Below are positions 3,237 to 10,347 of a DNA stretch of 21,079 bases, piece after piece. Position 1 is the first letter of the stretch. Each line of letters opens with the position of its first letter. The notes below the pieces were generated by a model. It was given only the letters and a program-made list of their open reading frames with translations. It had not been told where the DNA came from and ran no database searches. A program made the translations under genes and the position numbers. Location: IMG/VR virus record IMGVR_UViG_3300017759_000110, positions 1 through 21,079 of that record. One strand, 5' to 3'. The DNA comes from a virus.

Positions 3237-3517
3237 TGTCAAAAGAAGCAGACTTAATAACTGAAACATTAAAAAATATGACAGAACAAATAAAATTAAT
3301 GGCATCAGTTCAAATGGCTGTTGTTACATACTTAGGTGAGAAAGACCACAAATTTAGAAGTGATGTTATTTCCGAAGTATTAGCAGTTGATAAATTTAGA
3401 GAATCATTTACAAATTTTCTGCTTAGTAGAGATGATGCACCAGATGAAGTTAAATTACAAATGATAGAAATTAATGAAGGTATCAAAGAAATTAAAGAAG
3501 GGAGAGATAATGCCTAA
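3236..3517 (+). CDS. Hypothetical helical protein, 93 aa
   Basis: The protein is almost wholly helix-forming, with heptad-like hydrophobic spacing at residues 8-35 and a charged amphipathic tail (EINEGIKEIKEGRDNA). The start overlaps the preceding stop by 1 nt (TAATG), with GGAGGAG directly upstream. The 3' end overlaps the next start at 3510. No family is recognised and no function can be assigned. Confidence 0.68.
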   Translation: MSKEADLITETLKNMTEQIKLMASVQMAVVTYLGEKDHKFRSDVISEVLAVDKFRESFTNFLLSRDDAPDEVKLQMIEINEGIKEIKEGRDNA

Positions 3518-4121
3518 CTGGACAGATAATACATTAGTTATCACAGGAACAGGAGAACATCTAGATAAGTTATTAAAAAAGATAACAACTGATGACTCCG
3601 ACCCTAGTGATATACAATATAATTTTACTAATTGTTTTCCAAGACCAGAAATATTTGAGAAAATACATCAAGGTTCAAGAGATTTTGATGGTGTTAGAGT
3701 TAATGCTTGGTTCGAAGATGATGAAGGTGCTAGACCAATTATGGATATCACTAAGCAAGAATTAATTGAAAAATATGGTACATATCAACCAGTTGATTGG
3801 GAATATATCAATTGGGGAACTAAATGGGGTGATTCTGATACTGAATTGTTATCAATGCAAATATCAGAAGATGACCCATATGAAAATGGCAAGTTAGTAT
3901 TTGCATTTAGTTCTGCTTGGGGAGAACCATTTAGATTATTAAATGATATAGCTAAAAAGTATGATGTAGAAATATGTAATACTGTAATACACGAGTTTGA
4001 AACAACAAAACTTAATAGTAATTATCCTTGGACAGATGAAGATACTAAAAAAATATATAAAGAGTATGAAGAATCTAGGATAAAAATGATTAAAATGATT
4101 GATAAAAATATTAGTAACTAG
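3510..4121 (+). CDS. Api92/YubB-like ferredoxin-fold protein (DUF1281 type)
   Basis: Seen: 203 residues beginning MPNWTDNTLVITG, then a Pro-containing segment (NCFPRPEIF), YINWGTKWGD (residues 99-108) and FAFSSAWGEPFRLL (131-144). Known: these match the DUF1281/Api92-like family (usually MPNWCxNxLxIxG..., WGTKWD, FxTAWxPP), common in phages and plasmids and of unknown role. The usual Cys after NW is Thr here. Start choice: GAAGGGAGAG lies about 5 nt before the ATG at 3510; the open frame back to 3474 only overlaps the previous gene. The gene ends exactly where the 4120-4403 hairpin array begins. Family confidence is good; function is unknown. Confidence 0.72.
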   Translation: MPNWTDNTLVITGTGEHLDKLLKKITTDDSDPSDIQYNFTNCFPRPEIFEKIHQGSRDFDGVRVNAWFEDDEGARPIMDITKQELIEKYGTYQPVDWEYINWGTKWGDSDTELLSMQISEDDPYENGKLVFAFSSAWGEPFRLLNDIAKKYDVEICNTVIHEFETTKLNSNYPWTDEDTKKIYKEYEESRIKMIKMIDKNISN

Positions 4122-4403
4122 CATAAGCTACCGAAATAGGTAAATCAAAAAAATACCCTGTTGGATTTATCTATGGTAGGTAGCTTGTAGCACATAGAAG
4201 TCGACCATTTGGTAACCAATCCATTAGGTCTAATCAACTGTGTGTTACAAGCTATCTATAAAACAATAATACAATAGCGTGCTGTTGTTAGGTGGAGGTA
4301 GGTAGCTTATAGTATGTATGGTTTTCATAGTAAAAATTGTGAGGTTTTTTAATTACGTTATACCAAGACCAATTTTCCATACATACTATAAGCTATCTAT
4401 ACA
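4120..4403 (+). repeat. Array of long hairpins built on a repeated GGTAGCTT core
   Basis: No credible gene lies between 4122 and 4422. Hairpin 1: AAGCTACC (4125-4132) with GGTAGCTT (4179-4186), inside it an 11-bp stem 4136-4146/4164-4174 with one G-T pair. Hairpin 2: 4178-4194 with 4241-4257, 17 bp with two G-T pairs, and inside it TTGG-TAA-CCAA (4209-4219). Small hairpin: 4271-4278/4281-4288. Hairpin 3: 4300-4321 with 4377-4398, 22 bp with one G-T pair, enclosing AAAATTG/CAATTTT. The core occurs as GGTAGCTT at 4179 and 4301 and inverted as AAGCTACC at 4125 and AAGCTATC at 4249 and 4390. Hairpins 1 and 2 share one strand and exclude each other. It could be a replication origin, a regulatory leader for the 4423 operon, or a set of small RNAs. 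Confidence 0.7.
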
Positions 4404-4422
4404 GATAGAGAGAGGAGGAAAT

Positions 4423-4638
4423 ATGACAGAGCCTTATGTATATAAAAACCCAATGAAAAAAGATTGGGATAAAGATTGCGTAATAACTCTAACATTTCCA
4501 GAGGAAACAACAAGTGAACAGATAGATGAACAAGTTGATGAACTTGTGAAACTAGCTGATAACAATAAGTTGTTTACTTTTTTAAGTCATAGCATTGACT
4601 TAATAGAAGAAAAACTAGACGAAGAAGATGACATATAA
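4423..4638 (+). CDS. Hypothetical acidic protein, 71 aa
   Basis: The protein is small and acidic (ends LDEEDDI), with a predicted beta strand (CVITLTF) then a helix (SEQIDEQVDELVKLA). No family is recognised. Start choice: AGGAGG (4413-4418) is 4-5 nt before the ATG at 4423; the frame is open back to 4318, but that part lies in hairpin 3 and is not likely translated. The gene begins 25 nt after the hairpin array, so the array may sit in its leader. Its stop overlaps the next gene by 11 nt. Confidence 0.65.
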   Translation: MTEPYVYKNPMKKDWDKDCVITLTFPEETTSEQIDEQVDELVKLADNNKLFTFLSHSIDLIEEKLDEEDDI

Positions 4639-5797: not shown

Positions 5798-6571
5798 TTG
5801 GAAGAAACAATGGAGAAAGGACCTATAACTTGTTGGGACAAAGTCGCATCAGCTATAGGTAATGCAGATAGAATACTGTTATACGGGCCACCTGGTACTG
5901 GTAAAACATATGCAGCTGCAACTAATAAAATAGGATTAAACATGAGTGGAGAACCTAATGTTTATCAAATTACTATGACAGAAGACACTGCTAGTGCAAA
6001 CTTAGAAGGGTTTTATAAACCCAATTCGTCAGGTGGATTTGAATGGCATGATGGTATAGCAATCCAATCATGGAGAAATGGTGGAAGATTAGTAGTCAAT
6101 GAAATTGACCACGCTTCACCAGATGCTATGACATTCTTACATGCTGTATTAGATGATAAAGATATAGCACAGTTGACATTAAATAATGACGACAAAGAAA
6201 CAGTAAGACCAAAGAAAGGTTTTAATGTTATAGCTACAACTAACAGCCTACCAGAGAGCCTACCCATGGCACTTAAAGATAGGTTCCCAGTTAAAATACA
6301 TGTAGATACAATACACCCTAGTGCATTAAAAATGTTTCCAAAAACATGGCATCAGGTAATTAGTGATACTTCATTAACAGAAAATATGGAAGATAGAGTA
6401 TCAGTTAGAGCTTGGAGAGAATACTTTGAGTTACAACAACGTGGTGTTGAAATGAAAATGGCAGGTAATTTAATATTTGGTGAAAGAGCAGATGAACTGC
6501 TTGACGCTATTAAATTATCTGATGTTAATATACATGACAATAGCTTGAAAAATGTACAAGAAGAAGAATAG
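5798..6571 (+). CDS. MoxR/CobS-type AAA+ ATPase
   Basis: Seen: 257 residues with Walker A GPPGTGKT (30-37), Walker B LVVNEID (98-104), sensor 1 VIATTN (144-149) and a likely arginine finger in LKDRF (R162). Known: MoxR/CobS/NorQ-type ATPases work with a VWA-domain partner, usually encoded next door, as chaperones or chelatases that remodel protein or insert metal. The next gene encodes just such a VWA protein. Start choice: AGGAG (5787-5791) is 6 nt before TTG at 5798 and 18 nt before ATG at 5810, so the rare TTG start is favoured. CobS-like ATPases are known in T4-like cyanophages. The target here is unknown. Confidence 0.88.
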   Translation: MEETMEKGPITCWDKVASAIGNADRILLYGPPGTGKTYAAATNKIGLNMSGEPNVYQITMTEDTASANLEGFYKPNSSGGFEWHDGIAIQSWRNGGRLVVNEIDHASPDAMTFLHAVLDDKDIAQLTLNNDDKETVRPKKGFNVIATTNSLPESLPMALKDRFPVKIHVDTIHPSALKMFPKTWHQVISDTSLTENMEDRVSVRAWREYFELQQRGVEMKMAGNLIFGERADELLDAIKLSDVNIHDNSLKNVQEEE

Positions 6572-8066
6572 TAAGGTACCCTTTCCAGAAATAGCTTCTG
6601 GGGAGGGACCATGGAAAATCTATGATGATGCAAATCAACCTAGAACTTCTACTCTATCTCATGAAATGTATGTTCCTACAGATGATGAACTATGTTCATT
6701 ATGTGGTTCAAACCATAACAAACAAATTAGAAGACATGAACTTGGCCATGCTAAGTGGAGTCCTAAAACTGTAGGTAAACTCAAAGAGAATGAGAATGAA
6801 AAATGCATTGAGATATGTGAAGAAATTCGTATTAACTATAACTTAGGTATAAAAGATATATATCTAGATGATTGGGTTGTATGTCAACCTATTCATGAAG
6901 AAAGAGCTATAGATTTATTTTATAATAGTTCTTTGTTCGATATAGTTTCATATATTATGATATGTATGGCACCTATAGAAACTAATAGCAATAGTTATTA
7001 TTCTGGAAGAAGGCCAGCTAGTAAAGAGTTTGCATCTTTGATAGAAATATTTGAAGACCTAAGAGAAATACCTAGGGACTCAGCAAAAGCATTAACTAAT
7101 TTGCGACTCAATCAAATAAATTGGTGCTTTAAACAAGCAAATAATTTATGGGAAAGAATTACATATACTAGAGGTTATTATAAAAAACCTAGTAAGTATA
7201 TTAAAACTAGAAATGCAGCTAAAATCTTGTTTAAACTTATGGAACAGTTTAGTGAACCACCTAAAGAGGAACAGGTTCTTGAACAAGCCAGAAAAGCTGC
7301 ATTAGCTAAACAAAAAGCTAATAGTGCTAATAAGCAAACAAGTGGTAACAGTTCAGAAGGTGAAGGTGATGATATAGCTTCACTTGATGAATTAATGTCT
7401 AGAAATGCAGAGCAGATGTTTGAAATGACATCTCAGAGTAATAGTAATATGAATTATAAACCTAATCTAAATGATATGGCAGGTAAGTGGGGTAAGATGC
7501 AAATATTCAAACCTCATCTTGAAGTAAATCTACAATCTAAAATTAAAGGTGGTAGAGAATACAGGCCTATGGATTACGGTGTAAATCCAAAGTATATGAA
7601 TCGTTGGTGTGTGGATAAAAAAGTATTCAAACAAAAACAAAGAGTATATGGTGGAACAATACTAATAGATGCGTCAGGTTCTATGTCCTTTAGTGGCGAA
7701 GATATACTAGAAATAATGCAGATGTTACCTGCAGTTACTATTGCTATGTATAACGATAGAGGTCAGGATTGGGAAACAGGTTCATTGCGTATCATTGGTC
7801 AAAATGGTAAGAGAGTTAATCAAGACTATCTAGATAGATGGACTGGCGGTGGTAACTTAGTTGATGGCCCAGCGTTAGCTTGGCTGGCTAAACAACCACC
7901 TAAAAGAATATGGGTTAGTGATATGTATGTCTTTGGATTACATAATTCAAACTCAAATAACTTATTAAAAGATTGTATTGAACAATGTAAGCGTTCAGGA
8001 ATTACTAGGCTAGCTGATGTTGATGAAGTAAAAGAGTTTGCTTATCAACTGAATCAGCTACAATAG
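6552..8066 (+). CDS. VWA-domain protein with zincin-like HELGH motif (CobT-like partner)
   Basis: Seen: 504 residues. The N-terminal part has C48-x2-C51 and HELGH (62-66), a zinc metallopeptidase HExxH motif, with EICEEIR (87-93) placed like the third-ligand helix of such domains. A Lys/Ala/Ser/acidic linker runs from about 240 to 280. The C-terminal VWA domain has MIDAS DASGSMS (373-379), TGGGN (431-435) and WVSDMYV (455-461). Known: VWA proteins pair with MoxR/CobS ATPases, and peptidase-like plus VWA proteins of the DUF2201 kind are widespread. Inference: with the upstream ATPase it forms a two-part remodelling or proteolytic machine, perhaps acting on host proteins. The start overlaps the ATPase gene by 20 nt and lacks a clear ribosome site, which suggests coupling. 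Confidence 0.85.
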   Translation: MYKKKNSKVPFPEIASGEGPWKIYDDANQPRTSTLSHEMYVPTDDELCSLCGSNHNKQIRRHELGHAKWSPKTVGKLKENENEKCIEICEEIRINYNLGIKDIYLDDWVVCQPIHEERAIDLFYNSSLFDIVSYIMICMAPIETNSNSYYSGRRPASKEFASLIEIFEDLREIPRDSAKALTNLRLNQINWCFKQANNLWERITYTRGYYKKPSKYIKTRNAAKILFKLMEQFSEPPKEEQVLEQARKAALAKQKANSANKQTSGNSSEGEGDDIASLDELMSRNAEQMFEMTSQSNSNMNYKPNLNDMAGKWGKMQIFKPHLEVNLQSKIKGGREYRPMDYGVNPKYMNRWCVDKKVFKQKQRVYGGTILIDASGSMSFSGEDILEIMQMLPAVTIAMYNDRGQDWETGSLRIIGQNGKRVNQDYLDRWTGGGNLVDGPALAWLAKQPPKRIWVSDMYVFGLHNSNSNNLLKDCIEQCKRSGITRLADVDEVKEFAYQLNQLQ

Positions 8067-8081
8067 AAGGAAGGAAAATTA

Positions 8082-8232
8082 GGGGTACCGTGCAACTGGC
8101 AACAGTGGGTTGTACTCCTTTCCGACCTTAAGCACGGTATTCCATCTGTGGATGGGGGTGTCCAAGTTAGAGCATAAACAACTACCCGTTGATATTATGC
8201 TAACGGAGGTTAAACTCCTCCCACCTCCACCA
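8082..8232 (+). ncRNA. Candidate structured RNA with a tRNA-like 3' end
   Basis: Domain 1: a 12-bp stem 8082-8093/8132-8143 (two G-T pairs) encloses ACTG-GCAA-CAGT (8095-8106, a GNRA loop) and GGTTG/CGACC (8108-8112/8123-8127), making a three-way junction. A short stem CCATC-TGTG-GATGG (8142-8155) competes at its edges. Domain 2 (8154-8232, 79 nt): acceptor GGGGGTG/CACCTCC (8154-8160/8222-8228, one G-T), then ACCA; T arm GGAGG-TTAAACT-CCTCC (8205-8221); and, in place of normal D and anticodon arms, a long helix 8166-8177/8195-8204 with a 2-nt bulge, closed by CAAC-TACCC-GTTG (8179-8191). This resembles the tRNA-like half of tmRNA, but no tag frame is present. T-loop position 56 is A, not C. 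A T-rich run follows. Confidence 0.6.
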
Positions 8233-9804: not shown

Positions 9805-10347
9805 ATGGTAGAAAAAGATACCAAGAAATTATTATCCCCTTTTCCACCTCATTTGGTTAAGAAAGCACCAGCTGGGAAGTTTGGGGACTATGTACCACAC
9901 GCTAATTATGTTGAAAGACTAAGAGATAGTGGTATTAACTATACCTGGAAATGTGAACCAGTATATAGTACACACAACGGTGAAAAGAGAATAGTAGGTG
10001 CTAAAGGTACTATAACTATTGAAGGTATGGGAAGTTACGATGGCTTTGGTGATATAGATACATTTAAAATGAACAATGATAAGTTCAATGATGGTACTAA
10101 CCTTAAAGACGCAGAATCAGATGCATTTAAGCGTGCATGTATGAGGTTTGGTCTTGGTGTAGAGCTATGGTCAGGTTCAACTCAGACTGAAGAAGAGGCT
10201 GCGGCTGAGGCAGCTAGAGAAGCTTCAGTTGAAGTTACTAAAGTTGACATGCGTTTAAAAGAGAACAAAGTTCCTAAACCAGAACCAAAACCTATAGATG
10301 AAGTTAAGTTAAATGATGATGGAACTATAGCTGAGGCACCTTTCTAA
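9805..10347 (+). CDS. Rad52-type single-strand annealing protein
   Basis: Seen: 180 residues. FPPHLVKKAPAG (13-24) and YVPHANYVERL (29-39) resemble the Rad52/Sak N-terminal region that reads substrate DNA. AESDAFKRACMRFGLGVELW (103-122) is the hallmark helix of the Rad52/Rad22 family. The C-terminal 50 residues are Ala/Glu/Lys/Pro-rich and disordered, ending DDGTIAEAPF, perhaps an SSB-tip-like or partner-binding tail (inference). Known: such phage recombinases anneal complementary ssDNA during repair and replication and work with SSB, which is present at 2287. AGGAAGGA precedes the ATG by about 5 nt. The stop overlaps the next ATG by 1 nt (TAATG). Confidence 0.85.
   Translation: MVEKDTKKLLSPFPPHLVKKAPAGKFGDYVPHANYVERLRDSGINYTWKCEPVYSTHNGEKRIVGAKGTITIEGMGSYDGFGDIDTFKMNNDKFNDGTNLKDAESDAFKRACMRFGLGVELWSGSTQTEEEAAAEAAREASVEVTKVDMRLKENKVPKPEPKPIDEVKLNDDGTIAEAPF

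Follow-up and report, generated by a model that had tools for sequence, protein, structure and literature searches.

The hairpins of a small gene-free array in a phage genome are real and are read as RNA. Near-constant arms of about 20 nt, of a left and a right type, alternate around structured cargos, both within and between hairpins, and genome comparison shows that whole cargos have been replaced between otherwise near-identical phages. This swapping of cargos between phages is the main point that lay out of sight of the preliminary description, which was made from the letters of one genome. There is an even chance that the hairpins are exchangeable RNA cassettes of a phage array, which would probably work in trans and on a variety of host targets.

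The window (the whole stretch of DNA that was analysed) is a 21,079-base IMG/VR record, in which the array occupies the gene-free stretch 4122-4422. The features of the array, its first downstream gene and two further features are listed here, with the basis of each in brackets.

4123-4132, + strand: right-type separator ATAAGCTACC, the start of the array (sequence, inverted-repeat table, separator parse of the identical relative L004)
4133-4175, + strand: first cassette, an 11-bp hairpin with ACCCUGUU in its loop (fold, covariance model R1)
4176-4197, + strand: left arm of hairpin 1, GTAGGTAGCTTGTAGCACATAG (sequence, fold, arm comparison)
4198-4237, + strand: cargo 1, of cluster C4, beginning GTCGACCATTTGGTAACC (cargo clustering, separator parse)
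4238-4259, + strand: right arm of hairpin 1, CTGTGTGTTACAAGCTATCTAT (sequence, fold, arm comparison)
4260-4297, + strand: inter-hairpin module with a small hairpin, CAATAGCGTGCTGTTG (separator parse, fold)
4298-4321, + strand: left arm of hairpin 2 (inverted-repeat table, fold)
4322-4376, + strand: cargo 2, of cluster C2, from TAAAAATTGTGAGG to CAATTTTCC (cargo clustering)
4377-4400, + strand: right arm of hairpin 2 (sequence, inverted-repeat table, fold)
4423-4638, + strand: first gene 3' of the array, 71 aa with many acidic residues
8154-8232, + strand: putative stand-alone tRNA-like domain of tmRNA type (model R2)
9805-10347, + strand: Rad52-like single-strand annealing protein (phrog_3290, E 2.3e-11)

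The preliminary description had placed a gene-free stretch of hairpins between two genes, one at 3474-4121 and the other starting at 4423, with one core reused in the stems (GGTAGCTT at 4179 and 4301, AAGCTACC at 4125, AAGCTATC at 4249 and 4390), and both statements are confirmed. The upstream gene matches Pfam DUF1281_C at 22.7 bits, just below the cut-off of 22.8, and the 71-aa protein downstream is without a Pfam or PHROG match at E 0.001. The hairpins themselves stand, but two of their stem lengths do not: the middle stem is 22 bp (4176-4197 with 4238-4259) rather than 17, and the last is 24 bp. As had been claimed, both of these stems have G.U at their non-Watson-Crick positions when read on the + strand, and the inverted-repeat table gives the arms 4299-4321 and 4377-4399 as 23 nt with 96% complementarity. 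The first cassette is a weak and partial match to the commonest inter-hairpin motif (model R1 at 4140-4170, 10.4 bits, E 0.05 in 701 bases). The window's array is also held by the related loci L004 and L008, and its parts recur separately. Cargo of cluster C4 is found in L046/L124, L049/L090, L058/L061 and L147, and between hairpins in L112 and L040; a module nearly the same as 4260-4297 occurs in L009 and L199; and cargo 2 has kin among the cargos of L005, L028, L110, L133, L178 and L199.

On the + strand, RNAfold gives 4110-4425 an energy of -104.2 kcal/mol against -64.7 for shuffles (z -8.07), with 0 of 100 shuffles as good, so the array passes the folding-energy check proposed for it at the outset; the - strand gives -77.9 kcal/mol (z -4.85). 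A chance origin of the hairpins was considered and rejected. The 8-mer core is not enriched (20 copies with at most one mismatch in the window against 15.1 expected, a count that 16 of 100 shuffles reach), yet the long inverted repeats and the folding exceed chance. Mutually exclusive folds had also been proposed, and the alternative pairing does exist on paper. The separator at 4123-4132 is able to pair with the first left arm, and 4176-4190 pairs either upstream (4123-4190, -24.8 kcal/mol) or downstream (4176-4260, -40.7 kcal/mol); at these energies the downstream hairpin should win once made. Beside separators, pairing across the spacer in 110 modules exceeds that of shuffles by a small margin, with a mean run of 2.04 against 1.46 in shuffles, the largest of which reaches 1.69. 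A switch between alternative folds in the window is a possible but weak proposal.

Relatives were collected in three ways: with the AAA ATPase of the window (5798-6571), for which the best 80 of 117 loci were kept; with the gene before the array, which gave 3 loci; and with an exact 17-nt piece of the left arm, which gave at least 119 stretches. Because loci were found by the ATPase or by the exact 17-mer, the conservation of the arms is partly a product of the gathering. A strict hairpin is present in 62 of the 80 best ATPase loci, in three others (L010, L032 and L060) the hairpin is a variant whose inner stem has changed, and the remaining 15, several of them cut, have neither a strict hairpin nor a clear variant. 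The 182 strict-hairpin regions were reduced to 140 islands by dropping those whose middle 300 bases recur elsewhere; several of the 140 come from close phages, and beyond the removal of identical sequences the counts are uncorrected for kinship. Among cultured phages, window positions 4050-4500 have no blastn match at E 1e-5, and the array of one relative, searched at E up to 10, yields only matches of about 20-30 nt. The exact left-arm 17-mer has 4 matches in 84,980 species genomes, where about 30 would be expected at even base composition, and none of the 4 has a right arm within 260 nt. One of the 4, L207, has a loose hairpin of its own, with 16-17 of 20 pairs and 6 mismatches per arm, which was taken as chance. 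As clues to the host, the terminase of L163 (26%) and the nuclease of the window (47%) resemble those of Streptomyces phages and the portal of L173 (34%) that of a Sinorhizobium phage; with similarity pointing to both groups at 26-47%, no host is claimed. WhiB is found in 0 of 30 large contigs.

The order of the arms is regular. Neighbouring separators in 149 islands from 135 loci are left-right in 232 cases, right-left in 207, right-right in 60 and left-left in 23, so that 439 of 522 neighbouring pairs alternate. A left arm and the next right arm form a predicted RNA stem of 20-22 bp on the coding strand. Selection for RNA pairing had been suggested for these stems, and the arms bear it out: in 167 unique arm pairs, which came from hairpins preselected for at least 18 of 20 pairs, 240 cells have changed on both sides with pairing kept, against 42.5 in column shuffles (maximum 76). 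The 88 arm pairs picked by sequence alone contain 1463 Watson-Crick, 261 G.U, 9 A.C and 27 other cells, and without the three positions that are usually G.U there are still 68 G.U to 9 A.C. The left and right arms as DNA are identical at 17 of 20 positions when one is inverted, and a DNA palindrome was rejected on the excess of G.U (261) over A.C (9). Compensation can also be followed in a single diverged relative, L005, in which none of the 23 pairs compared with the window's last hairpin is broken, two having changed on both sides and two to G.U on one side.

The cargos are far more varied than the arms. The set of hairpins (up to 215 nt long, at least 18 of 20 pairs, a few overlapping) holds 212 unique members, whose inner sequences fall into 98 cargo clusters (blastn E 0.001), a number that is not the true count of families since blastn can split kin cargos. 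For example, C3 and C27 look like one motif, and the cargos of L070 and L091 are visibly alike but lie in two clusters. Islands hold up to four hairpins, and in 58 of the 59 islands with at least two clustered hairpins no cluster occurs twice; the exception, L096, consists of two overlapping spans of one cargo. At the other extreme are near-empty hairpins with a cargo of 5-9 nt (L035, L084, L122, L164). Kin cargos turn up both within and between hairpins, and sometimes the stem around them is an unrelated one, as with C3 in L125, L143 and L153.

Some of these contents are conserved as structures. The commonest inter-hairpin motif runs AGUARGAG, stem, GCCCUGUU, stem, ACUGAAAG, with 96% of cells paired. 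In 25 chosen sequences all five of its pairs have changed on both sides, in 37 cells against 10.2 in shuffles (0 of 500), and at E up to 0.1 its model is matched 48 times in 100 loci; by a loose test, separators lie on both sides of 41 of these matches, on one side of 5 and on neither side of 2. CCCTGTT is found in 36 of 176 unique inter-hairpin modules. The loops of modules that are otherwise unlike repeatedly carry this motif (CCCUGUU, 36/176) or CCCUUU (17/176), which is noted here as a side observation. Cluster C3, in 12 chosen sequences, has six short helices including a pseudoknot. Pairing is kept in 96.7% of its cells, and double-sided changes number 9 against 2.2 in shuffles; the pairs of the pseudoknot are almost invariant and so give covariation little to work on. 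Beyond the collected arrays the C3 pattern was found at 37 new loci, of which 13 are the true motif by eye and 24 look like chance. Twelve of the 13 have both left and right separator matches, and L212 has one right-type match only. Similarly, 17 of 19 new C0 loci have left and right separators within 400 nt, the exceptions at that distance being L248 with one right-type separator and L256 with none. Some copies of a cargo therefore lie outside a standard array. Cargos folded by themselves are modestly better than shuffled (mean z -0.69 and -0.71 on the two strands, 87 clusters), and since this is modest and equal on both strands, no strong thermodynamic signal is claimed for them.

Protein coding was tried as an account of the cargos and rejected. 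The left-arm consensus has TAG in all three frames, so no frame is open across a hairpin with either real or shuffled cargo; in the 189 cargos examined the arms close every frame, which is uninformative on the cargo alone. Cargo lengths are divisible by three in 55 of 199 cases. By eye, the C1 cargos (L164, L120, L122, L107) have a tRNA-like T-arm and a D-loop-like GGGAG, and the L120 cargo has GCGAG together with UUGGAAU in the T-loop. Compared with L164 this is one covarying change of a D-loop/T-loop contact, and it resembles the flip of a tertiary G-C pair. No tRNA is reported in C1 by Rfam at E up to 1 (L107, L120, L164) or by ARAGORN.

The replacement of cargos is seen when close relatives are compared. 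Among 84 distinct combinations of ATPase and cargo there are 37 pairs with ATPases at least 95% identical, and only 11 of the 37 have a cargo cluster in common: 8 of 14 at 99% or more and 3 of 23 at 95-99%, with L070/L091 counted as not sharing although alike. For the 26 non-sharing pairs, the sequence to the left and right of the last hairpin, as much as 300 nt per side, was compared by gapped alignment. Both flanks could be tested in 23. Ten of the 23 pairs reach 95% identity or more in both flanks over at least 200 bases, with identity that reaches 8-23 nt into the hairpin from either side; each of the other 13 has at least one flank that is less similar or shorter. In L080, L082 and L083 the flanks are 96-99% identical and the arms are identical over 19-22 nt, with three unrelated cargos between them. 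The pairs L011/L012 and L021/L022 have ATPases that are 100% identical over the aligned part and cargos that are unrelated.

Enzymes that could move such cassettes were sought in 30 large contigs, which may be incomplete. Tyrosine recombinase or integrase (PF00589), resolvase (PF00239), reverse transcriptase (PF00078) and TnpB (PF07282) were each found in 0 of the 30. The Rad52-like protein of the window (9805-10347) also matches Pfam PF04098 (E 8.7e-4, 19.7 bits against a cut-off of 20.3), and its family is present in 21 of 30 related contigs at E 0.001, in 8 of them above the Pfam cut-off. From the lack of integrase, reverse transcriptase, resolvase and TnpB and the presence of a Rad52-like protein in 21 of 30 contigs, we infer that exchange proceeds by homologous annealing at the arms, probably through the phage's own Rad52-like protein, which is the candidate for this task. 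The G.U pairs would keep the two arms unlike as DNA while letting them pair fully as RNA.

Genetic cassette exchange at short fixed sites is known for genes, and integron cassette arrays and shufflons likewise have contents exchangeable between short conserved sites. However, the arrays differ from both in that their contents are RNA and that the recombinases (PF00589, PF00239) are found in 0 of 30 contigs, on which ground an integron or shufflon is rejected; the left and right arms also stay distinct, so shufflon-like inversion is not expected. By the same search, a retron or diversity-generating retroelement is rejected for want of a reverse transcriptase (PF00078, 0/30), and a TnpB-linked guide RNA for want of a TnpB-type nuclease (PF07282, 0/30).

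The stem may serve as a common scaffold or as a processing handle, for example for RNase III, with which its length fits; stems of 20-22 bp suit this enzyme. Bacterial rRNAs, too, are structured RNAs enclosed by a long processing stem, but theirs is an unchanging cargo, whereas in the arrays the stem is constant and the cargo changes. The cargos would act in trans on host-specific factors, most plausibly defence or RNA-handling proteins, by analogy with pseudo-ToxI (PMC3475682) and RNA anti-CRISPRs (PMC10651486), two examples of phages employing RNA in such a role. Host factors are suggested as targets because turnover is fast among small early genes, and a counter-host role for the arrays would likewise rest on turnover and position. 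A constant stem, a varied but conserved cargo, fast replacement, a single slot per genome and many different neighbours would all five be explained by a set of trans-acting RNAs, and a function in trans stands at about an even chance. In its fullest form the proposal is more tentative and falls short of that: phages may pool dozens of small structured RNAs, traded via one pair of 20-nt arms by their own annealing recombinase, each blocking a different host protein or RNA machine and all protected and processed by one shared stem.

That no known family came to mind for the array had been part of the preliminary description, and this is borne out within the Rfam scans and the paper searches. At the Rfam 15 gathering score no array hairpin matches in the window or in 26 loci. 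In 12 further loci at the same score the only matches are tmRNA (L028, L133, L009) and tRNA (L035), and no left and right arm surround any of them. When E up to 1 was allowed, 17 loci (L160, L094 and L155 were also in the gathering scan) give no family for the array hairpins, the sole match being a microRNA-named one to a long stem in L107, below gathering. The window's stretch at E up to 5 gives six microRNA-named and two sRNA-family matches, all below gathering, and the one with the lowest E is let-7 (26.4 bits against a gathering score of 53.5). ARAGORN finds no tRNA gene in the window or 24 loci.

Several phage RNAs in the literature are nevertheless of the same general kind. Pseudo-ToxI of phage PhiTE (PMC3475682) is a non-coding RNA repeat locus that varies by expansion and recombination, and it counters host defence by mimicking a pseudoknotted RNA antitoxin. 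Like the arrays, it is a phage non-coding RNA in a changing locus, but it is one 36-nt unit repeated, whereas the arrays hold unrelated cargos that are replaced between alternating inverted arms. Type III antitoxin RNAs (ToxI, CptI, TenpI) are tandem repeats of one RNA unit that precede a terminator and a toxin gene (PMC5086642). They were rejected as an identity for the arrays, given that no cluster recurs in 58 of 59 islands, that the arms alternate and that there are 29 downstream families; antitoxin RNA families are also missing from the Rfam matches in the loci scanned. Racr are likewise small RNAs of phages; they mimic solitary CRISPR repeat units and thereby block the host's immunity, and candidates are described for many CRISPR types (PMC10651486). 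As solitary repeat units they are unlike arrays with two alternating inverted arms and many unrelated cargos. GOLLD and ROOL are large ornate non-coding RNAs (PMC12286853), single and of fixed family, while the arrays are without an Rfam match.

GOLLD and ROOL occur in phages among other places, and Rfam includes CRISPR repeat families; the arrays have no Rfam match of any kind in the loci scanned. In open-licence literature, excluding preprints and covering titles and the starts of abstracts, no exchanged structured RNA under a constant stem was found, and we know of no case of small structured RNAs being exchanged in this way.

The surroundings of the arrays bear on how they are expressed. 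The 140 islands lie in 50 flanking-gene contexts with 29 downstream families. The nearest conserved gene is on the strand of the array in 125 of 129 cases downstream and in 108 of 119 upstream, and only 3 of 140 islands have a hairpin that shares more than 60 nt with a conserved reading frame. The left arm, with 3 mismatches allowed, is found in 25 of 30 large contigs, the matches in each contig lying within about 2.4 kb. Some relatives share a common leader with ACATATAATTACA before arrays with differing first cargos (15 distinct sequences). The array in these can end in a stem-loop followed by eight T, with CCCTGTT (L125, L138, L158) or CCCTTTGTT (L154) in the loop, and L178 and L180 have a strong terminator-like hairpin nearby. 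A terminator scan after the last hairpin found 8 distinct sites in 140 islands, 6 of them judged convincing and two inside a gene (L004, L005); as controls, the opposite strand gave 0 of 140 and random windows 6 of 271. In some relatives the array thus appears to be its own transcription unit. A conserved, promoter-like leader AAAAGACAACATATAATTACA lies directly 5' of arrays whose first cargos differ, in L125, L138, L146, L153, L154, L158, L177, L221, L230 and others. L004 and L008, with the window's array, are absent from the 15 leader sequences. In the window, 11 nt separate the end of the right arm of hairpin 2 from the Shine-Dalgarno-like GAGGAGG of the gene at 4423, so that, in the manner of a 5' leader, the array leads directly to a ribosome-binding site, and it is probably part of an early mRNA.

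This layout, with arrays on the coding strand among early genes, stems of a length that suits RNase III and a last hairpin 11 nt before a ribosome-binding site, is what one would expect if the stems acted in cis, as RNase III or stabilising stems of an early polycistronic mRNA that merely tolerates what the loops contain. Conservation is not expected of such passengers, however, and the cargos recur with compensated changes and under unrelated stems. They are also replaced whole, faster than the flanking genes turn over, and the genes downstream belong to 29 different families. A purely cis role, which we consider unlikely, explains the stems but not the conservation and replacement of the cargos.

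Less probable still is that the arrays are selfish or mobile RNA or DNA elements, in which the arms are element ends and the cargos have no value to the phage. The same ends around many contents in 50 contexts, and the near-empty hairpins, would suit such elements. But tyrosine recombinase, reverse transcriptase, resolvase and TnpB are all at 0 of 30 contigs, the arrays keep to one place per genome and to the coding strand of their neighbours (125 of 129), and both arms and cargos covary at the level of RNA.

A set of sensors of riboswitch type, built on a common P1 stem and each in control of the gene that follows, would account for the compact conserved folds with a pseudoknot and for the ribosome-binding site near the last stem in the window. 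We regard them as very improbable: at the gathering score Rfam gives no riboswitch for the window or any of 38 loci, and none for 17 loci when E up to 1 is allowed, islands hold up to four hairpins, and the cargo does not track the downstream gene. On this last ground, with 29 downstream families in 140 islands, a riboswitch class was rejected. A DNA element such as a replication origin, a packaging site or palindromic protein-binding sites would place inverted repeats in one place per genome, but it is already largely refuted by the strand asymmetry (G.T rather than A.C on the coding strand, 261 to 9, which DNA symmetry does not predict) and by a flanking context that is not constant, and it retains next to no credibility.

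If the cargos act in trans, as the reading of the hairpins as exchangeable cassettes proposes, the arrays would amount to a large collection of natural RNA inhibitors, and it could be read from the hypervariable slot which of them are under current selection. Should phages indeed pool their RNAs, the arrays would be the RNA counterpart of anti-defence gene islands and a catalogue of undescribed natural inhibitors. Should the stems act only in cis, there would still be a need to explain why structured contents are freely exchanged under a stem that stays constant.

The window also carries, well away from the array, a domain at 8154-8232 that by its sequence qualifies as the tRNA-like domain of a tmRNA, with the acceptor GGGGGUG/CACCUCC, G3.U70, A73 and CCA. 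Its model R2 was built from 11 sequences, the window's copy among them. The domain occurs in 25 of 169 sources (18 of 80, window included, and 7 of 89 further loci), among them L009, L010, L011, L013, L014, L028, L035 and L178; in distinct sequences, again with the window, G3.U70 is kept in 19 of 21 and A73 in 20 of 21. The domain of L035 carries A3-U70 instead, and the match in L188 is weak, with a 3' end that may be wrongly placed. Rfam tmRNA scores 51-52 bits in L009, L028 and L133, and the window's copy falls below the gathering score. Neither a tag-peptide frame nor pseudoknots were found: a model stretch of 304 positions corresponds to 12-13 nt in L028 and L009, and a plain hairpin takes the place of the tag region. 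L028 has a sub-threshold alpha_tmRNA match at 1289-1465 (21.4 bits against 50). The domain lies just after the last hairpin in L028 and directly after a left-type separator in L035. Marine phages with complete tmRNAs, two-piece ones included, are known (PMC9004378).

Other features were noted in passing. By eye, a long hairpin (GGGGTACCGTGC...GCACGGTATTCC, with TCCTTTCC inside) lies at 8082-8143 of the window, just 5' of the tRNA-like domain, and a similar one is seen in L009. The MoxR/CobS-like AAA ATPase (5798-6571) stands beside a 504-aa phrog_33218 protein (6552-8066), and the pair recurs in many relatives. In L107, the long hairpin with the microRNA-named Rfam match has another stem (TGTAGCTAAGTG...CACTTAGCTACT) and is found at 2596-2672, a few hundred bases before the array, and it may represent a second arm type.
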